Positions 2,383 to 26,840 of a stretch of DNA of 27,836 bases are shown piece by piece. The DNA is taken from IMG/VR virus record IMGVR_UViG_3300037231_000280, positions 1 to 27,836 of that record, one strand, 5' to 3'. A program made the translations under genes and the position numbers. The stretch's first letter is position 1. Each line of letters opens with the position of its first letter. The notes under the pieces were generated by a model. The model made no database searches and had not been told where the DNA came from. It saw only the letters and a list, made by a program, of their open reading frames with translations. Origin of the DNA: a virus.

Positions 2383-4974
2383 TTAGTAGCTGGTGCAGAT
2401 TCCAGTGAAGATCATTCCACCCACGGCAGGGTTGGTGATGGTGATCTGGTCTGTTCCCGTTGCCGATACATAAACCGCATTTGGGGCTGTATCGTTGGTC
2501 AGCGCGGAGCTGTTGACTGGGTTAGGCAGACTGCAATGACCAGTTGGAAGCATTCCTGGCAGTGTCACAACATTCGTTGTCGGTGGTGAGGCTACGGGAC
2601 CAACGCTGACTGATAGGGCAAGCGTTCCTGTAGAAATCGAATAGCCGTATGCACTTGTAGAGGGCGCACCTGTGTTGTAAGCCCAACTACCGGTGGTGCT
2701 GTTGTAACCTACCAGTGCTCCTGACGTCTCTGAAACAAGAATGTAGTTCGTAGCCGCTACAGTTGGAGCCGTGAAAGCTGTGCCTGCCACAAAGGTTTGA
2801 GTGCATGGCGCAGTGCAGGTGGTAGGGGTGACTGTGAAATAACTGCTTGAACTAGCCATCTCATAGTAGTTTCCAGTCGTGTTGTTCTCAATGTATACGG
2901 TGATTGGTGTTGTGCCATTCGGACTGGTGTTGAACCCTATGCTTATGGAATTTATCTGGCCGTTTGCTCCTAATGCTGTCGGCAACAGGCTGTAGTATCC
3001 ACCGTTGATCGAACTGTTCATCGTTGGGATAGTCCCTATTGTTGACGACGATCCTGATGTCGAGGAGGTAGTTACCGTATAAGGCAGCACAACCTTAGTT
3101 GTGTTGCTGGGTACAGCCTGAATTGTCGCCTCGAATGCTTGAGCCAGATGTACGTGACCTAAAGGGCCTGGATGTAGCGGTGCAGCTCCACCAGACATTT
3201 CCGCAGCCGTGGCGAGCATGTAATTTTCATCATAGGCAATGCGAACATCACCGCCGTCTCCGGCAATGAGCGCCGCGTTGACAAGCACGTCAGATGTGTA
3301 CTGTGCGATGGTGGCCGGCGTGGAAATTGCGCCCGTGGGGCCTTGGTTTGGAACTTGGCCGACTGCGATGGTAGGTGCGGAGTAATAGGGATTGGCCGGG
3401 ATGGAGCCAACACCAACAATGCCCACGGTGCCGCTCACCCAAGTGAAGGCAACGGTGTGTGTCCCGGCAGCTACCGGATAGCGGCCCGCCAGAGCTACGG
3501 ACGCGGTGCCGCCGTTCTGCGTTGCAATGGCCGGAGTGGTGGTGGTGGAGAATGGCCCTTGAGCCGTGCCGCCATCCACGGACAAGGTGAAGCTGCCCGC
3601 CGTGCCATCCTTGATGAACTGCCACACATAAATTGGGTTGCCAGTGGTGACGATGGTTGCCGTCTGCACGCCGGTGGCCGTCATGGTTGCTTGTGCCACG
3701 CCGTTGGTTGTCACGGACGCCGCGCTGTTAGCGCCGGAGGTGTTCACATACGCGCTGTTTCCCGGCAGGACCTTGTTTTCAAGGGGCACCGCCAGCCACG
3801 CAAGTACCGCTTGCTGGCAGGTGTTGAAGACTGCCTCATAGCTGCCCACGCCCTTCACATCGGCGTCATTGGTGCCGATCATCAACGTGTACAAGTTAGA
3901 TGTGGCTTGGACGGGCTGGTCAGTGGTGACGTTGGGCGTAATCTGCAAGGGCCAAAGGTCGCACGCTTGGTCACCAGAGATGGCGCGGTCATACAAGGTG
4001 ACGCCAAAGTCCTGTGACATCAGGTAGCCATACATCGTGGTTGCAGGCGAAGCAAGCCCGTAGCCCATAGAGATTGAGTCACCTAGCACCACAAGTTTGG
4101 CTCCGTGGGTGAGGCGCTTCTGTATGCCATTAGGCAGGCGGGCAGAGGAGATGACGCCACTGGTGATATTGGCGGCATTGGCTGCCGCTGCCCGTTCGGC
4201 AGAGACGGCGGACGTGGCAAAGGTTTGAGCGGCGGTCAAGCTCGTGGCGATGGCGCTTGTGGCAAAAGTCTCCGCCGTGGACTGCGCCGTCGCCGCCACT
4301 CCCGCCCCATCATAGGCCGAGGTCGCCGTCATCGCAGCAGAGCCCAGCACGTTCGATGATGCGCCAGACGGCAGCTGCACCGCGCCTTGCAACGAGGTGG
4401 TGGCTGCCGGGAGCTGGGCTGGCAAAGCCGTGCCCGTGAGACCAGAGAAGGCGGTCGCTCCCGAGCCAGAGCCGGCCGCCCCCGTTGCACCTGTCGGGCC
4501 TGCGGGCCCCGCTGGCCCGGTCGGTCCCGCCTGCTCCACCACCAGCGCCGCAAGGTTCGGCGTGTAGGTGTCGAAGTCCCACGCGCTGCCGCTGGGCTGG
4601 ATGCAGCTATAGCCGGGGAACGGGATCTGGCGGCCGGTAAGGTTGCTGATCAACGTAACGCTGTAGCAGACGTTCACTGGCGAGGTGAGCGACGTATCCG
4701 CCAGCTGGATGCTGAAGGCTCCGGCGGTGACCGTGGTGGAGACGGCATAGGCAATCGCCTGGCCGCCCGTTCCGCCTGCCCGGAAGGAGATGGGAGCGCC
4801 GGCGGCGTTCGCCGGCTGAAAGCGGATGGTGGCGTTGGTGACAAGTGTGCCCGTAGCATCATGCAGCAGCGAGCTGCTGACGATCGTGTATCCAGCCGTT
4901 TGCGCAGACGCAGCTGCAGCGCCAAACGCGCACAGAAGGGCCAAAGCTGCGGAGCGCAGCATCTTGTGTTTCAT
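2383..4974 (-). CDS. Tail fibre with signal peptide, collagen-like stalk and SGNH hydrolase domain
   Basis: An 863-aa protein after a perfect SD (AAAGGAG, 6 bp before the ATG). Residues 1-25 look like a Sec signal peptide (basic start, hydrophobic core, ASA-Q cleavage), odd for a virion part. Residues 26-145 form a beta-rich head, 148-170 is a Gly-Pro/Ala-Thr collagen-like run, and 180-285 is helical, Ala-rich stalk. The SGNH/GDSL esterase domain has GDS (S300), SGD (333-335), GTND (367-370) and HPGPLGH (H601); the usual Asp three residues before the His is Ala598. A beta-rich insertion (about 400-540) splits the hydrolase. Residues 620-863 form a Ser/Thr-rich C-terminal region. As the last late gene next to the tail-tip gene it probably binds or deacylates host surface glycans. 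Domain call strong; virion location inferred. Confidence 0.8.
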   Translation of the reverse strand: MKHKMLRSAALALLCAFGAAAASAQTAGYTIVSSSLLHDATGTLVTNATIRFQPANAAGAPISFRAGGTGGQAIAYAVSTTVTAGAFSIQLADTSLTSPVNVCYSVTLISNLTGRQIPFPGYSCIQPSGSAWDFDTYTPNLAALVVEQAGPTGPAGPAGPTGATGAAGSGSGATAFSGLTGTALPAQLPAATTSLQGAVQLPSGASSNVLGSAAMTATSAYDGAGVAATAQSTAETFATSAIATSLTAAQTFATSAVSAERAAAANAANITSGVISSARLPNGIQKRLTHGAKLVVLGDSISMGYGLASPATTMYGYLMSQDFGVTLYDRAISGDQACDLWPLQITPNVTTDQPVQATSNLYTLMIGTNDADVKGVGSYEAVFNTCQQAVLAWLAVPLENKVLPGNSAYVNTSGANSAASVTTNGVAQATMTATGVQTATIVTTGNPIYVWQFIKDGTAGSFTLSVDGGTAQGPFSTTTTPAIATQNGGTASVALAGRYPVAAGTHTVAFTWVSGTVGIVGVGSIPANPYYSAPTIAVGQVPNQGPTGAISTPATIAQYTSDVLVNAALIAGDGGDVRIAYDENYMLATAAEMSGGAAPLHPGPLGHVHLAQAFEATIQAVPSNTTKVVLPYTVTTSSTSGSSSTIGTIPTMNSSINGGYYSLLPTALGANGQINSISIGFNTSPNGTTPITVYIENNTTGNYYEMASSSSYFTVTPTTCTAPCTQTFVAGTAFTAPTVAATNYILVSETSGALVGYNSTTGSWAYNTGAPSTSAYGYSISTGTLALSVSVGPVASPPTTNVVTLPGMLPTGHCSLPNPVNSSALTNDTAPNAVYVSATGTDQITITNPAVGGMIFTGICTSY

Positions 4975-4995
4975 GGTGATCTCCTTTGAGAATGG

Positions 4996-7995
4996 TTATT
5001 GAATGTAGATCTCGAAGACGTTTGCGGCTGGGTTGGATTGCTCCGTTGTGCCCCGCGTGATCGGAGTCCCCACTGCGCCCGGAATCGCGATCACCTGGAT
5101 GGAGACCGTGCCGATATTTGTGCCGGCCGGGATGTCAGCGGTGTAGGTCGCCGAAGCCGTGTTTGCCGTCAACGTCGCCAGCGTCGTGACGGTTCCACTG
5201 ATCGACACCGTGAGCGAGATGGTTCCATTGGCGCCCCCGCGTGCAATGTTCATGGACGCACTGAGGATGACGCTCAGCGTGCGGTCTGATGTGCTGGAGG
5301 TCGCGGGGAAACCGAGGAAGGTGCAATCCCCATAGGCATAGCCGGACGTGGTGCCGTTATCGGTTGCCATGCCGCTGACGGTCGCACTGGTCGCCAGGTT
5401 CCCATCAAAAGCTTGATAGGCGGCAATCGTGGTGTAGCTCCCGGTGTCACTGAAGGTGGTGGGAGCGATGCGGGCGCTGCCAGATCCAGAGCTATACGCC
5501 GGGGTCACGATTGAATCGATCAGGAAGTACCCAGGCTTGCCGATGAAGTCTGCCATGGTGGTCGTCGCGATCGGCGTCACGTTGCCGCCCAGGAAGTTCG
5601 GATCGCTGTAGTAGACGTAGTACCGCGTCTGCAGCGCGAGATCCCCTCCGGCTCCGCCAATGGTTCCATCCACCAGCAGCGTTACGGCACCGGCTGGGAA
5701 GAGGATGATCAAAATCTGCCCAATGTAGGTTTGGAAGCCGCTACAGATAATGGCAGCCGTGGTGCTCGATAGCGCCGCTGCAGAGAGTGAGCCAATCCCC
5801 ACGCCCGCCTGCGAGACGATGGAGAGCACCAACCCTCCCGTAATCGTCACAGGGCCTTCCCACGCCGAGGTAGCACCGCTGGCGCGCACGGTGCGGATCT
5901 GCACGCTGTATTCCTGCCCCGCGACGATTGGCCCGATGAAGGCCTGATTGACTTCGACCGAAGGCGTTCCGCCGTCCTGCCAGGTGCCGGAGCCTCCCTG
6001 CTGATACTGGATCTGGATGCCGGTGGCGAAGCTATCCAGCGGCGTATCCCATGTGACCTCCAGCCGCGGCGTTACGATGCCGTCAGCGGCTACCAGCGCG
6101 GTTGCGGAGGAGCTGATCACCGTGAGGCCTGTGGGTGCCACGGGAAGGCGGCTGGGGCTCTGCATGACGCCCGGCACGTCGTAGATGGTCAGCTCTTCGG
6201 TGGCGCTCCACTCGTAGATGCTAGGGTCAGTCTCCGCAACGTCGAACTGCACGCGAATCTCAGACGGCTTGCCGGGGGCGCCGGGCGAACCATCCCCACC
6301 GCTGACCTTGACGGTGCAGCCGGTGATCTCCAGAATCTTCTCCGACCAGCCATGCAGGGGGAACGTGAAGTACATCACGTCTATCTCCTGCATGGAGAGA
6401 GCGGGGAGGCCCATCTCCAACTGGCCACGCCCCCAGAAGCGACGCCGCAAGAGGTCAATCTTCGCCAGGCGTTGCGCCTGCGCGATCGAGAGCACCATGT
6501 TGTAGCTGACTTCGAGCGGGAGATTGATACCCGCGAGCTGCCACACCGTCGAGGTTGGCGATGGAACATTGTTCGGATTGCTGCCAGCCAGCGACTTATA
6601 AACGCTGTAATAGGGGATCGTGCTGGTGCCAACTGCGATGTCCGTGACATAGGCAACCACCGTGCCGGCCGCATAGGCGGTGGTGGCGCTCCATGGGCCG
6701 CTGACGTTCGAGTCTTCATCTAGCCACTGGTTCGCAGCATAGCCGTGTAGCGGATCCTGCGCGTAAGGCGGGAAGCTGGTGGGCTGGAAGCCAAACTGGA
6801 AGTTGTTCTGGAGATTCCCCTCCGGATCGAAGCCGTTGGAATCGAAGAGATTCCCCGCGACGTTGTACGGGTAGTTGGGCGCGGTATACGTGCCGGTGAC
6901 GAAGTTGCAGTTGTCCTTGTAGGCTGCTGTCGGGTCCCACTGAAGAGGAGCTGTGAGCATGCTCTCATCGAAGCTGGCCGAGGGACCCTGCCAGTATGCC
7001 GGCCAGATGTATACCTCTCCGCCAATGACGCTGATGCGGCCGCCGCAGCTCTTGAGCATGGTGGCCAGCGCATCGCTGGGTGCGGTGCTGGTGTCGAAGT
7101 GATAGTGGCACTGATACATCGACTCATAGCCACCAGCAGCCAACGCAACCTGCTCATCGCACATGTTGGCTGCGGCGATCAACTGCTCCTCATTCACGGC
7201 CATGCCCATGCCATACACGGTGTCCTGCAGCCAATCCGCGATCACCAGCGCAGAGTTCGCGCTGAAGGCCGTGACGCCGGTGCGGGGATCATAGACGGGC
7301 TTGCCGTCGACGGTGACCCGAACCTCCGGAGCGTTAGGAAAGATGCTGGTGTAGTACTCGCACTTGAGATACATCCAGGTGCAGCCGCCCAGATACGGCG
7401 TGCCCGATGACGAAGGCCCCCAGGTTGAATCATTCGCCTGCAGATTGACATCGAGGTCAGCGGCCGTCTGATCGCCATAATAGGCATTCGCAAAGACCAG
7501 GTTGCCGAAGTTGTACTGCGTGCCATCCGGCCCTGTGTAGGTATTGCCATTGGCCGCGCCGCCAAAGCCGACGCCGTTCTGCACCGTCCAGCCAGCGCCG
7601 GAACCATTGAACCAAACCTTGCGGCCGTCCAGATAGAGCGCCTGGATATCGCTGCACGCATGCCCGGCAAGAGCAATCACATAGTTGAATTGCGACGGGC
7701 CACTGCCCGTGGTGCTCTCATAGATGTAGACGCCGCCCACGCGTTGTTGGCCATAGATGATCTGGCGCGGAGCTGCAGGCTGCCGCGTGGTGATATTCAT
7801 GCCACGGTTGGTGGTGAGAGCGCTGGCAATGGCGCCGGCCTCCATGGCCACGCCGCCCGCAGCGAGTGCCATCATCGCACCGGTAAGAAATGGAAGCGCC
7901 GCGATGCCCACGCCGGTAGACGCCAGCGCAAATTCAGCGACACCTACGGCGACCGCTCCTGCGATCATCGCTGCGCCTTCAATTGCCTTGCTCAT
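4996..7995 (-). CDS. Tail-tip / host-attachment protein (gpJ-like)
   Basis: A 999-aa protein sitting after the NlpC/P60-like gene, with a 4-bp ATGA overlap, the standard place for the lambda gpJ-type tail-tip protein that closes the tail and contacts the host. The first 60 residues are hydrophobic and Gly/Ala-rich. Then comes the PRQIIYG region, common at the N-terminus of this family, a hub-like body, and a fibronectin type III-like domain (about 618-725: start LPVAPTGLTV, end WEGPVTITGG). Residues about 433-489 look like an inserted carbohydrate-binding-like module (W435, Y441, G444, Y462, NPNN, W485). The C-terminal 270 residues are beta-rich. Placement and N-terminus support the call; the receptor is unknown. 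Confidence 0.75.
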   Translation of the reverse strand: MSKAIEGAAMIAGAVAVGVAEFALASTGVGIAALPFLTGAMMALAAGGVAMEAGAIASALTTNRGMNITTRQPAAPRQIIYGQQRVGGVYIYESTTGSGPSQFNYVIALAGHACSDIQALYLDGRKVWFNGSGAGWTVQNGVGFGGAANGNTYTGPDGTQYNFGNLVFANAYYGDQTAADLDVNLQANDSTWGPSSSGTPYLGGCTWMYLKCEYYTSIFPNAPEVRVTVDGKPVYDPRTGVTAFSANSALVIADWLQDTVYGMGMAVNEEQLIAAANMCDEQVALAAGGYESMYQCHYHFDTSTAPSDALATMLKSCGGRISVIGGEVYIWPAYWQGPSASFDESMLTAPLQWDPTAAYKDNCNFVTGTYTAPNYPYNVAGNLFDSNGFDPEGNLQNNFQFGFQPTSFPPYAQDPLHGYAANQWLDEDSNVSGPWSATTAYAAGTVVAYVTDIAVGTSTIPYYSVYKSLAGSNPNNVPSPTSTVWQLAGINLPLEVSYNMVLSIAQAQRLAKIDLLRRRFWGRGQLEMGLPALSMQEIDVMYFTFPLHGWSEKILEITGCTVKVSGGDGSPGAPGKPSEIRVQFDVAETDPSIYEWSATEELTIYDVPGVMQSPSRLPVAPTGLTVISSSATALVAADGIVTPRLEVTWDTPLDSFATGIQIQYQQGGSGTWQDGGTPSVEVNQAFIGPIVAGQEYSVQIRTVRASGATSAWEGPVTITGGLVLSIVSQAGVGIGSLSAAALSSTTAAIICSGFQTYIGQILIILFPAGAVTLLVDGTIGGAGGDLALQTRYYVYYSDPNFLGGNVTPIATTTMADFIGKPGYFLIDSIVTPAYSSGSGSARIAPTTFSDTGSYTTIAAYQAFDGNLATSATVSGMATDNGTTSGYAYGDCTFLGFPATSSTSDRTLSVILSASMNIARGGANGTISLTVSISGTVTTLATLTANTASATYTADIPAGTNIGTVSIQVIAIPGAVGTPITRGTTEQSNPAANVFEIYIQ

Positions 7996-9722: not shown

Positions 9723-12629
9723 TTAGCGCCGATTCGCTGGCGCAACGCGGCTGTTATCGCTGTGGATAGAGCTCTTCGTGGCGGCGATGAGATGCGGCGC
9801 GGCCTGCATGATGCCCTGCTGAACCAGCGCCATGGTCTGCGCCGGATCGGAAGAGCCGCGCGCATCGATGTGATAGTGCGTATCGCCGCTGCTCCCGGCG
9901 CCTGGCTGGTTGTACTTCTTCGGCACGACTGCCTCACCTTGATGGATCATTGCGAGCGTGTCCTGCGGGACATAGTTGGTTCCCGAATCGAGGAAGGGGA
10001 TGAAGGGGGCGGCGAGCTTGGTGGCATCGCCCATAAGGCTCTGTACTAAGCTCCCCACGCCAGAGGGCGGCGCAGTGTAGCTGGACGTTCCACCCGGGGA
10101 GACGTTCGGCATAGCCGGGCCGTTCTTGCCAAAGAGCGACATCCCCAGCGCTGCGGCTCCGGACGCCAGCGTGGCGGCGGAGTTGGCATTCGCCGAAGAG
10201 GATGACCCGGAACCGACCGAAACGCCCGGGGCGGTGGGTCCATTCGCGCCAAAGATCGACTTACCCAGCGCCGCCACTCCGGAAGAAGCGTCCGAGGTGA
10301 TCTTGGACAGGTCCACCGACCGGGTGTACATGGGATTGCCCGGGGTGCCCAGCTTGGCGCCGGCACCAGTGAGGCCAGGGATCAACCCCATCAGCGAGCC
10401 TTCACCCTTCTTCAGCGCAGTCCCGGCAACACCCGTAAAGATGTTCTTGCCCGCATCCGTCCACGCCCCGCGGCGCTGGTAGTTCTTCTCGGTCAGGTCT
10501 TTCAGGATGGCGCCGTTGGTGCTGCTAAGAACGGAATCCACCAACGCCTTCATCTGCGCGGCAGAATCCTTGGAGGCTGCCGTGAACTCTCCCAGCGCCG
10601 TTACCGCACCACCCACAGCCGTCTGCGAGAAGGCGCCCCACTGGTCCTGCATGGCCTGCAGGTCGCCATGGCCCTGCTCCTGCGCGATAGCAGCCTGCGT
10701 CGATTGCTGCTGGGCGACAAGCTGCGGAGCCTGGCGCTGATACTCTTTGCTGTTGGGATCGAGCGCCTGGAGCGTCGCGGTAAGCATGGCAAGGTCTGCC
10801 TGCAGCGCGGTGATCTTGGCGGTGGAGTCCGCGGCGTGAATATCGCCCATCGCGGCCGCGCCATCCGATTTCGACTTGGCGCCAGATTTGACAGCCATCT
10901 CGATCTGGAAGGCCTTGGCAGCTTCGGCGTTCTTGATAAGGATGTCGCCAGTGCGCTGCAACTCTACGTTGTAGGCCTTCCAACGCTCGCCGGTCTGGGT
11001 GATATCCTCCGCCTGCTCGCGCTGATAGGCGGCAAAGGCAGCCATGCCCACGTCCGCTTCCTTGGGGTCGAGCCCGGAGGTGTACTTCTGCGACTGGACG
11101 TCTTTCCTGAAGATCTCCCCGCGAAACTTGATTGCCTCTTCCGACTGCTTCACGATGTCATCGGTGATCTTCTTTGCGACGGTGCGGTACTGCTCCGAGC
11201 CCTTGGTGAATTGATCGATCCGCGCCTGCCAGTATTCTTTGTCTGCCTGCGCGCTCAGCAACCCGCGCTGATCCTCCACGGTGGCGCCGATCTGCTTCTG
11301 AGCATCGCGGCCATCCTCCATACTCTTGAGCAAATCCGCCGCCGAATGGTCCTTACCCGCCTTGTCCCCCTTGAGGCTGCCAAGCGTTGCCGTCCGCGCG
11401 AAGATGCTCTCCTGTAGCTGCTCCTGCACCTTCGCGGCCTGCAGCTGCTGCAACCGCCCCTGGATGTTCGCAATCTTTGCGCTGTTGTCGGTGGTGTAGG
11501 CCCCGTTCACGCCAGCGGCCGCGTCCATGTAGCTGGTGCCAGCCTTGCCCGACTGCTCCTTCTGAAGCCGCCCCAGCTCCGCAGCATAGGTATCGATCTG
11601 AGACTGGAAAGCAGCATGGACGGCCGCATTGCGGATATCGGTTGCGTCCTTGATCTTTTTCGCATCGGTGGTCGCAGCCTGCACCACGTCAAGCTGCTGG
11701 TTGGCGTCACGGACTGAGTCCGTAAGCTTTTTCTGATCGGCAAGCAACTCGCCGCCTTGCGCCTTTGTCCCGGATACACCCGATAACAGGGAGCCGAACG
11801 CACCCACTTCGTGATCCTTCAGAAGGCCTTCCAGCTCTTTGCGGTCTGATTGCAGTGAGAGCACAAGCTGGTCAGCCATCTTGCGGGCCTCATCCAGCGC
11901 TACAGCGAGGCCGTTGTTAGGCGTTTTGGAGATCTTGTCAATCTGCTGCTGAAGCTTGTCATTTGTGATGCTTAGATCGTCGATGGAGACAACCGCTTTA
12001 TCGTGCTCCGCCTGGAACGAATCCTGTATCGCCTCCGCAGCATGCGCGGCCTTCTGCTCCACATCGTAGATTTTCTTCCCGATGTCGACGATGATTCCCG
12101 CAAACGCGATGCCGCCCACGATGGGAAAGATAGACTGGAGCGCGGCGCCGACGCCGGGGATGGTGGTGATAAACCGCTCCACCGCCCGAATGCTATTGTT
12201 GCCCTCCGCCAAGCGGATGGTACCCGAAGCGGCCATCTGCTTCGAGATGACCGCGCCCTCCGCAGACTCCTGCAGCTTCGCGGCGGCCACAGCCTCCAGG
12301 CGCAGCGCTGTGAGTCGCTGGAGGGCAGCAGCTGCAGCCTGCGACCCGGAAGCCTCATCGAGCAGTCCGCGCTTGGTATAGGCGAGAGCCTGGTAATAAT
12401 CTTTCTGCGCCGTCTTTTCGGCGTTCATGCTGGCGATCCGCTTGAGCGTCTCCTCCGAGACGACAGTAGAAGCGAACTTCTGCGCGAGAGCTTGAGCGTC
12501 CGCAGCAGACTTGGCAGCCTTTTCGACAGCTTTCCCGGTAGCCGTGGCTACCTCGGCCGACTTCTTCATCGGCCCGTCGAACCCGGCAGTGTTTACGCCA
12601 AGTTGCGCTTCTACGTCCATGTTTCCCAT
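9723..12629 (-). CDS. Tail tape measure protein
   Basis: A 968-aa, Ala/Gln/Lys-rich, largely helical protein, the longest of the mid-tail genes. Residues 22-130 are coiled-coil-like, 155-182 form one strongly hydrophobic segment (IPGVGAALQSIFPIVGGIAF...), and a long helical mid-section (about 190-720) follows. The C-terminal third is Gly/Ser-rich and ends in a basic tail. Such proteins set tail length and often carry one or more hydrophobic segments that enter the host membrane. By the usual 1.5 A per residue rule this would give a tail near 145 nm. Its ATG overlaps the stop of the gp10-like gene (TAATG). Confidence 0.85.
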   Translation of the reverse strand: MGNMDVEAQLGVNTAGFDGPMKKSAEVATATGKAVEKAAKSAADAQALAQKFASTVVSEETLKRIASMNAEKTAQKDYYQALAYTKRGLLDEASGSQAAAAALQRLTALRLEAVAAAKLQESAEGAVISKQMAASGTIRLAEGNNSIRAVERFITTIPGVGAALQSIFPIVGGIAFAGIIVDIGKKIYDVEQKAAHAAEAIQDSFQAEHDKAVVSIDDLSITNDKLQQQIDKISKTPNNGLAVALDEARKMADQLVLSLQSDRKELEGLLKDHEVGAFGSLLSGVSGTKAQGGELLADQKKLTDSVRDANQQLDVVQAATTDAKKIKDATDIRNAAVHAAFQSQIDTYAAELGRLQKEQSGKAGTSYMDAAAGVNGAYTTDNSAKIANIQGRLQQLQAAKVQEQLQESIFARTATLGSLKGDKAGKDHSAADLLKSMEDGRDAQKQIGATVEDQRGLLSAQADKEYWQARIDQFTKGSEQYRTVAKKITDDIVKQSEEAIKFRGEIFRKDVQSQKYTSGLDPKEADVGMAAFAAYQREQAEDITQTGERWKAYNVELQRTGDILIKNAEAAKAFQIEMAVKSGAKSKSDGAAAMGDIHAADSTAKITALQADLAMLTATLQALDPNSKEYQRQAPQLVAQQQSTQAAIAQEQGHGDLQAMQDQWGAFSQTAVGGAVTALGEFTAASKDSAAQMKALVDSVLSSTNGAILKDLTEKNYQRRGAWTDAGKNIFTGVAGTALKKGEGSLMGLIPGLTGAGAKLGTPGNPMYTRSVDLSKITSDASSGVAALGKSIFGANGPTAPGVSVGSGSSSSANANSAATLASGAAALGMSLFGKNGPAMPNVSPGGTSSYTAPPSGVGSLVQSLMGDATKLAAPFIPFLDSGTNYVPQDTLAMIHQGEAVVPKKYNQPGAGSSGDTHYHIDARGSSDPAQTMALVQQGIMQAAPHLIAATKSSIHSDNSRVAPANRR

Positions 12630-14405: not shown

Positions 14406-14861
14406 CTAGGCGCCTTCGACGAAGGTCGCCGCGCCGATGACGGTGAGGCTGGTGGTGAAGGTGATGATCTTGGTCGGGTCGACATCATCGATCTCATAGC
14501 TGAGCACCCACGCGCTGCCGCTGAAGAGATCTCCCGTGGTCGATTGCCCGCCTACCAGGTTGACCGGAAGCTGCAGCCTCCAGAAGATGGGAACCTTCGG
14601 CACCGCCTGAAAGTTTGCGTAAAGAAGAGCCTGGCCGGGGTCCGTAGAGACGCGGTTTCCTTTGAGGGGGATGGTGCCGAGCTTCTGCAGCGTGGGGGCA
14701 ATCTCTTCCGTGACGCTTTGCAGGTTGGTGGTGGAGACGGTGCCGAGCTCGCCAGCCTTATACGGCGCACTGGTGATATCCCCGACAGGCAGGTAGGACC
14801 CGGTGGACGTGGTGCTGACCGAAAAGATCGCGCCTACGCCAGATTGAGCTTTGCTGGACAT
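14406..14861 (-). CDS. Major tail (tube) protein
   Basis: A 151-aa, beta-rich protein at the fixed place between tail completion and chaperone genes. The start MSSKAQSGVGAIFSVST, the PVGDITS segment and TVSTTNLQSVTEEIAP match the common tube protein N-terminus, and the ending TFTTSLTVIGAATFVEGA is typical of phage tail tubes (SxxGxxTF-like). It would stack into the non-contractile tail tube. The SD is AGGAG with 9-bp spacing. Confidence 0.75.
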   Translation of the reverse strand: MSSKAQSGVGAIFSVSTTSTGSYLPVGDITSAPYKAGELGTVSTTNLQSVTEEIAPTLQKLGTIPLKGNRVSTDPGQALLYANFQAVPKVPIFWRLQLPVNLVGGQSTTGDLFSGSAWVLSYEIDDVDPTKIITFTTSLTVIGAATFVEGA

Positions 14862-14920
14862 GGTTTGCTGCTCCTGTTACTACAAGATGCCGCGCCCTCG
14901 CGAGCAACGGGGTGATACGG

Positions 14921-15319
14921 TTAGGCGCCCTGAATGGCGAAATCGAAGTAAAACTCAGCCGAGCAGCGGAACTGCCGGGCGTCGTTATCAAAGTAGTCGA
15001 TGGGTTGAATCAGCCAGCAGTCCGCAATAATGAACCCGTTCGGCAGCGGGCCGTTGAAGCCGTTGAGGACACGGATGACAGCGTCACGAAGCGCATCCGC
15101 GACGTCATCCGTGGCCGCTCGAAAGTCCAACTGCACCCGACGCCGCTGCATGCCGGAGGTGCCGAAGATTGGCCACTGACTGCCGCCCACCACGTGAAAG
15201 GTGGTAGCGGGCAGCGCCGTATCCTGCGGCAGGATGATCGGAAACACCCTCGCGCCCTGCAGCGCCACCAGTGCCGGTGCGGTGGCAAGCAGTTGATAGA
15301 GGCCTATACGAAAGGACAT
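14921..15319 (-). CDS. Tail completion protein (DUF3168, SPP1 gp17-like)
   Basis: A 132-aa protein with start GLYQLLATAPALVALQGARVFP, centre RRRVQLDFRAATDDVADALRDAV and end FRCSAEFYFDF, a good fit to DUF3168, whose members cap the head-proximal end of the tail tube. It overlaps the upstream gene as TAATG and has GGGAG at 6-bp spacing. The neighbours (head closure upstream, tube downstream) agree. Confidence 0.8.
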   Translation of the reverse strand: MSFRIGLYQLLATAPALVALQGARVFPIILPQDTALPATTFHVVGGSQWPIFGTSGMQRRRVQLDFRAATDDVADALRDAVIRVLNGFNGPLPNGFIIADCWLIQPIDYFDNDARQFRCSAEFYFDFAIQGA

Positions 15320-15699
15320 TATTGGCTCCCGTCGATTTCAAGGCACATCAGGTGAAGCACCCGGTTGCGCTCCTGCACGTTGTCAATCACCTGCACCTGG
15401 AAGAGGCGCGCGCCGAAGACAACTTGCAGGCTGGCCGCCAGGGCAACCGCGGGCCCGGGATAGTCGATGCTTACCCTGTGCGTTACCTGCGCGGAGAATT
15501 GGCCGCTCTGATACGCCTGCTTCGCCGCCAGCGTGTCGATCGCAGCCATGCAACTCAGCAGCACCACTGGATCTGTTGCTGTTTGGCCACCGGTGGGGCC
15601 CGGCGTGGTGCTCACTTGCTGGATCTGAATGAAGTTGCGCTTAGCGCCGGCCGGTATGGAGATGGGGTTACGGTTGCGGTTTTGGGGATAGGACCACAT
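15319..15699 (-). CDS. Head closure / head-tail joining protein
   Basis: A 126-aa protein with the Phage_H_T_join pattern: short basic N-terminus, QIQQVSTTPGPTGG, YQSGQFSAQVTHRVSIDYPG (residues about 63-82) and a C-terminal FQVQVIDNVQERNRVLHLMCLEID. SPP1 gp16-type proteins close the head after packaging and dock the tail. It starts one base after the previous gene's stop, with AGGA upstream. Confidence 0.8.
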   Translation of the reverse strand: MWSYPQNRNRNPISIPAGAKRNFIQIQQVSTTPGPTGGQTATDPVVLLSCMAAIDTLAAKQAYQSGQFSAQVTHRVSIDYPGPAVALAASLQVVFGARLFQVQVIDNVQERNRVLHLMCLEIDGSQ

Positions 15700-26168: not shown

Positions 26169-26840
26169 CTAAAACCACGCCGGGCTAATCTTCGAAATCG
26201 TCTGCCCAATCCCCAGCATCACGCCCCAGAACGTAACCTTCTTCACTGGCGGATGTGTGAGCTTGTGAACTTCCTCATGAACGTCCTTCAACGTGCCATC
26301 CGCCTGAACAGCGCTATCCGCCACAGCCGCGCTTGTCGTGTCCAGGTTGTGCACCGTCTGTAGCAGATCGGGTGAGGCCAGCAGCGCATGGAGCGCTTGA
26401 ACATCATCGTTTGCACCCGCGTAGATGGTCGCTTCCTGTTGATCCAGCGTTCCGAGATTCTTATCTTCGTGATTCGCCGCAATCTCAATCTGGCCCATCG
26501 TCATCCGAGCCGTATTCAGCGTCTTCGCAGCATCCGCCAGCAGGCCACATGGCCCAGGAACGCATGGAGCCTTCACGAGCTGCAGCGTCTGGTTGCCGGT
26601 CTTCAGCAACGCCACAGCGGCATCTGCGATCGCATAAAACTTGCTCACATCCAACGGCTGCGCTGGAATGAAACCCTTCGCAGTACTCAGTAGGTCTGCA
26701 CCCTGCACAGCGATTCCATGCTCATCCTGCCGAGCATCCTTCAACACGCCACAAGCCTGAACCGCGAGCACCACTAGCATGCACGTCAACAACCCGAGAA
26801 AGGCAGTGCGCGCCAACGTGTTGTATCGCTCGAAGGTCAT
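26169..26840 (-). CDS. Membrane-anchored or lipoprotein, possible spanin-like
   Basis: A 223-aa protein overlapping the previous stop by ATGA. Residues 11-29 are strongly hydrophobic and end at C30 (AVQAC), which could be a lipobox. The rest is periplasm-type, helical and Ala-rich, with Cys pair CVPGPC (92-97), which may form a disulfide, and a hydrophobic C-terminal segment (VTFWGVMLGIGQTISK). In the lysis neighbourhood a spanin or lysis accessory is possible. No known family recognised. Confidence 0.5.
   Translation of the reverse strand: MTFERYNTLARTAFLGLLTCMLVVLAVQACGVLKDARQDEHGIAVQGADLLSTAKGFIPAQPLDVSKFYAIADAAVALLKTGNQTLQLVKAPCVPGPCGLLADAAKTLNTARMTMGQIEIAANHEDKNLGTLDQQEATIYAGANDDVQALHALLASPDLLQTVHNLDTTSAAVADSAVQADGTLKDVHEEVHKLTHPPVKKVTFWGVMLGIGQTISKISPAWF

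Follow-up and report, generated by a model that had tools for sequence, protein, structure and literature searches.

The last gene of the tail operon in this DNA raises the question of why a tailed phage would encode a fibre-like protein that begins with an export signal, and what becomes of the product. The usual view is that tailed-phage fibres fold and are put together inside the cytoplasm, and to our knowledge export of a tail-fibre-like enzyme through the host is not generally expected of tailed phages. The window, the whole 27.8-kb IMG/VR virus record that was analysed, belongs to a phage of soil Acidobacteria. Its minus strand carries terminase, portal, protease, HK97-type capsid, tape measure and distal tail genes together with DUF2163-like, NlpC-like and J-like genes, and an integrase lies at its left end. 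The gene in question (2383–4974; this and all features described below are on the minus strand) starts with an ATG 21 bp past the stop codon of the immediately preceding gene of the operon (4996–7995), which encodes a J-like tail tip protein (phrog_31/5616), with a ribosome-binding site, AAAGGAG (4981–4987), 6 nt ahead of the start. No promoter-like site was found between the two genes, where the scan stayed at chance level, and an Rfam search of the window gave no RNA family.

Sequence and domain searches divided the 863-residue product into a signal peptide, an N-domain, a collagen-like stretch, an SGNH hydrolase and a C-terminal region. Gly-X-Y repeats occupy residues 150–172 (4459–4527), and Collagen was also found in 10 of 50 signal-bearing relatives. 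An Ala-rich linker leads from the repeats to the hydrolase (residues 290–625; 3100–4107), which scored above the cut-off for PF00657; the C-terminal region (residues 626–863; 2386–3099), with Cys720, Cys724, Cys814 and Cys860, had no family match. The open reading frame, the repeats and the Pfam match confirm the combination of a tail gene with collagen-like and SGNH parts that had been proposed in the sequence-only reading. The protein is called a putative tail fibre because of where its gene lies and which domains it contains.

The N-terminus has the layout of a Sec signal peptide (residues 1–24; 4903–4974): a positively charged n-region (K2–R7), a hydrophobic h-region (A9–A22) and the A-x-A junction A22-S23-A24, with predicted cleavage by signal peptidase I before Q25 and, by the heuristic used, no lipobox at the junction. 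The signal peptide claimed earlier is therefore present, ending at residue 24 and not at residue 25. Signal peptides were called by a crude heuristic plus family evidence. The heuristic made calls in 47 of 62 family members, in none of the NlpC, distal tail, tape measure, capsid, portal and terminase homologues, and, among other neighbours, in 2 of 21 DUF2163 and 7 of 27 J proteins. J proteins, which have a long Gly/Ala-rich hydrophobic N-terminus, are a false-positive class of the heuristic. The family signal peptides could be told apart from them because a [small]-x-[small]-Q junction was present in 43 of the 46 family members with a hydrophobic N-terminus, compared with 0/7 J proteins and 110/914 other ORFs; the same junction occurs in non-phage proteins at the same loci. 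Comparison of the window signal peptide with that of locus L002 gave a dN of 0.057 and a dS of 0.30, indicating purifying selection, a result that is only supportive given the few sites and 8 differences. Between L148 and L151 the signal peptide has evolved fast, with its hydrophobicity kept.

The N-domain (residues 28–145; 4540–4893) defines the family. AlphaFold2, run with a 22-sequence alignment, predicted a confident beta-sandwich over residues 29–135, with pLDDT mostly above 90 over residues 30–120. Residues 1–20 lay outside this attachment-like fold at low confidence (pLDDT about 52–54); an attachment fold covering residues 1–25, which the sequence-only reading had named as a finding that would refute it, was not predicted. 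Among viral proteins, the best fold matches included tail-fibre proteins and a minor tail protein from Arthrobacter phage Thunderclap (E 2.7e-5), with N-terminal portions of tail and tail-fibre chains among the matched parts; a weak match (E 0.04) came from an SGNH protein encoded by Pseudomonas phage LIT1. Searches of the PDB yielded nothing relevant by sequence and nothing at E<0.001 by fold, and no close relatives of the domain were found among described phages.

Relatives were found with an N-domain profile in 36 of 398 genomes in the family of the Acidobacteriaceae MAG that gave the first match, in 36 of 397 genomes at the level of the order, and, in a draw across the whole phylum, in only 6 of 396, most of which had already been found. 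Viral scans, the later of which used three sub-alignments of the family, added about 25 contigs. The second search round was queried with the mature domain alone (A3), so the signal peptide was not part of the query; a signal peptide preceded the domain in 51 of 59 distinct members. The other eight (L047, L048, L050, L051, L053, L056, L126 and L134) start within 1–8 residues of the domain and have no hydrophobic stretch after the start codon; their N-domains are up to 62% identical to those of signal-bearing members, and the signal peptide alone may have been gained or lost. A further signal-less N-domain gene, in the same genome as L048, is a decayed copy with a frameshift (L084:9078-9624 / L129:5335-5881).

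All members that could be placed lie in prophages or viruses, and the family spans several tailed-phage types. The gene is found after J or a tail hub, between the tape measure (TMP) and distal tail (DIST) genes, between those for DUF2163 and NlpC, within the head region, and in the early operon of Mu-like prophages (L063, L064, L074 and L078), where it ends the MuA/MuB operon beside host DNA. It thus changes slots as accessory cassettes do, and signal-less members share the TMP-DIST and post-J slots with signal-bearing ones. The C-termini of signal-bearing members are fibre or depolymerase modules (Collagen, GDSL, CBM5/12, beta-helix and K1-lyase_C), and SGNH was also present in four of the eight signal-less members. 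Capture of the N-terminus from a host secreted protein, suggested earlier for the first 145 residues, was not supported. It was rejected because the domain was found essentially only in prophages, where all strong matches that could be placed are located, and because the host-like matches (L079/L080, Ig/CarboxypepD_reg-like) reached only E ~1e-4.

Cysteine patterns gave two further lines of evidence for export. Five pairs of N-domain columns co-vary in cysteine, both positions being occupied together in 15/15, 7/7, 3/3 and 24/25 cases and, for the fifth pair, in 27 cases against 7 singles, of which 5 are signal-less members. In the window protein Cys103 (4666–4668) and Cys124 (4603–4605) form such a pair. 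A complete N-domain pair was present in none of the eight signal-less relatives. Full-length signal-bearing proteins, which hold 2–30 cysteines each, have an even number in 40 of 45 cases (p=8e-8), or 35 of 40 with close relatives removed, and the region after the N-domain has an even number by itself in 39 of 45 (p=5e-7). Controls were drawn from the head and tail proteins that these phages encode, and the count was even in 41 of 96 of them; signal-less proteins gave 5 of 7, a figure from few proteins. Per 100 residues, signal-bearing proteins contain 1.75 cysteines, signal-less relatives 0.92 and controls 0.80. The mature window protein contains 8. The even counts and co-varying pairs are those expected of chains whose cysteines pair in an oxidising compartment, and the even-cysteine result, which was unexpected, is independent of good signal-peptide prediction. 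On the family tree five signal-peptide changes are needed, of which well-supported branches force only one, the deep branches being poorly supported; the link between signal and cysteines is therefore not proven to be independent of ancestry.

The hydrolase gave 26.6 bits with PF00657 (cut-off 23.6) and 32.4 bits with PF13472 (cut-off 32.9). The catalytic Ser300 in a GDS motif (4075–4077), the GxND block at G367–N369 with Asn369, and the catalytic His601 (3172–3174) were all found; the block II glycine was assigned by eye. The Asp of the D-x-x-H motif is absent. Its place is taken by Ala598 (3181–3183), as the sequence-only reading had noticed, whereas relatives L054 (ADVVH) and L055 (ADPVH) keep the Asp. 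A sequencing error is an unlikely source of the substitution, since two changes separate the codon, GCA, from an Asp codon. The beta-rich insertion (about residues 395–545; 3340–3792) that had been said to split the hydrolase is real, but it is not peculiar to this protein: it is common to L054, L055 and L083 and is therefore the normal architecture of the subfamily. AlphaFold2 run on the hydrolase alone without an alignment gave a pLDDT of 37, and the model was set aside. A single-protein search of viral contigs found no relatives of the SGNH region. Homology to the SGNH fold family is upheld by these motifs, and standard triad activity is not. The esterase may have been inactivated by Ala598; a few SGNH esterases operate with a Ser-His dyad, however, and the substitution alone is therefore no proof of inactivity.

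The closest relative detected for the SGNH domain is a lipoprotein gene in an Acidobacteriaceae prophage region (L055:887-2617, minus strand, and L153; E 4e-46). It shares the SGNH-plus-insertion architecture and differs from the window protein in its intact Asp, in IPT-like repeats that replace the N-domain and collagen-like stretch, and in a lipoprotein-type signal with lipobox TGC-G, implying a lipid anchor where the window protein has a signal peptidase I site. Two fibre-like genes with signal peptides are located a few kb upstream of the L055 gene.

Among known systems, lambda Stf and PF08400 (phage_tail_N) fibres resemble the window gene in lying downstream of J and having a variable receptor-binding part, and resemble its product in an Ig/prealbumin-like N-domain that starts ...SG.L.D..G.P..N.TI. 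The N-domain did not reach the PF08400 cut-off (best 13.3 of 26.6 bits, in one relative), and hhalign gave a probability of 46% over 23 columns; the resemblance to the Stf N-terminal domain is suggestive only. Stf differs in having no signal peptide. No tfa-like gene was seen downstream of the window gene: no ORF of at least 100 aa was present on the gene's strand between 1393 and 2383, though many fibres need no such chaperone. For position the nearest precedent is Lom of the temperate siphophage lambda, a protein that has a signal peptide and whose gene directly follows J. Lom is small and sits in the outer membrane, in contrast to the 863-residue collagen/SGNH product, and no Pfam match to the Ail/Lom beta-barrel family was found in the latter. 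Tail fibres and spikes with SGNH domains, such as G7C gp63.1 and those of Klebsiella and Acinetobacter phages (PMC13123978, PMC11058221), are likewise receptor-binding proteins of tailed phages with an SGNH esterase domain, and Klebsiella prophage SGNH fibre proteins are active esterases (PMC13123978). These reports do not mention a signal peptide, which the window protein has, and the window protein differs from such fibres in its Ala for the catalytic Asp and its long beta insertion.

Export of the window protein through Sec is strongly supported by the family-wide signal peptide, the host-type signal peptidase I junction, the even-cysteine rule and the co-varying cysteine pairs, and these phages apparently make the host export a tail-fibre-like enzyme that acts on sugar coats. 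We consider it on balance probable that the late tail operon carries this gene as an accessory cassette encoding a Sec-exported, disulfide-stabilised, tail-fibre-like glycan-binding esterase. In the late phase the infected cell would export the product, and signal peptidase I would remove residues 1–24. Disulfides formed outside the cytoplasm would stabilise the N-domain, and in most relatives they would do the same for the remainder of the protein; the collagen-like stretch would probably trimerise the product. The SGNH domain, with Ser300 and His601 in place and its activity uncertain, may deacetylate or at least bind host surface polysaccharide. The putative site of action would be the periplasm, the cell surface or the lysate, where the free protein could remove or hide the receptor polysaccharide that surrounds a cell as it lyses.

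The slot hopping, the Mu-like early-operon copies and the lipoprotein relative favour a protein that is free or at the surface; attachment to virions is favoured by the conservation of the N-domain and by its signal-less counterparts. The signal-less N-domains, so similar and in the same operon slots, suggest one shared partner, most simply the virion, and this counts against the free-protein account. On that view the product might be a genuine fibre of the virion which is first exported, acquires its disulfides in the periplasm and attaches to the tail no earlier than lysis. A constant N-domain followed by variable C-termini, as in fibre anchors, and the fold matches to tail-fibre N-termini fit this well; the slot changes and early-operon copies suit a virion part poorly, and the open-access full texts offered no tailed-phage precedent. 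We regard this reading as possible, if unlikely. In its general form, it would mean that in Acidobacteriaceae tailed phages part of the machinery for recognising the host is made outside the cytoplasm, by Sec export, periplasmic disulfides and joining at or after lysis, with repeated switching of one anchor domain between exported and cytoplasmic forms, a proposal that we put forward as tentative.

Expression of a secreted or surface esterase by the resting lysogen, as with Lom, appears improbable. It draws on the signal peptide and post-J position of Lom, on Lom expression in a phi24B lysogen (PMC3342100), on the four copies that end Mu-like early operons beside host DNA, and on an acyltransferase-3 gene downstream in L046. 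The late-operon position disfavours it for the window, where the gene follows J by 21 bp with no promoter-like site between, and several relatives lie deep in tail operons, inside the TMP-DIST stretch. The earlier suggestion of a host-conversion gene was thus not supported here, while the four Mu-like relatives keep it alive for part of the family. Least probable is an ordinary fibre assembled in the cytoplasm, its hydrophobic N-terminus incidental or buried in the tail tip like that of J. The tail-module position and the J proteins that trip the crude test are compatible with this; the A-x-A-Q junction, absent from the seven J proteins compared, the cysteine patterns and the low-confidence position of residues 1–20 outside the predicted fold argue against it.

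Searches of open-access full texts turned up no account of tailed phages exporting tail-fibre-like proteins through Sec, which is weak evidence of absence. With exported-looking tail-operon fibres or esterases beside signal-less homologues in the same slots, the family offers a clean natural experiment. It asks whether fibre-like enzymes are deployed outside the cell before lysis, possibly clearing or masking receptors, excluding rivals or remodelling the host coat, or whether they are virion parts matured in the periplasm. It is also a source of disulfide-stabilised glycan-active enzymes from a barely studied phylum.

Several further genes were observed at these loci. The window itself encodes a second N-terminal export-like signal, with a lipobox-like LAVQAC-G, in a small late protein (26169–26840, minus strand). 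Additional signal-peptide genes directly flank the fibre-like gene in the same operons (L002:7164-7546, L008:2644-3072 and 11053-11475, L139:4315-4773, L145:11195-13438 and L049:1209-5514), and these phages seem, from such predictions, to export several late proteins. The exported fibre-like protein L008:7362-11048 and the J proteins of L008 and L005 contain similar insertions of Gly-rich repeats of the GGSGY type; judged by eye, cysteines are present in the exported copies and absent from those in J. In L046 two fibre-like genes with signal peptides stand in tandem, the first of them encoding a GDSL domain, and are directly followed by the acyltransferase-3 gene (14514-15620; O-acetylase type, PF01757, E 2e-30), a possible acetylation/deacetylation pair of the prophage.
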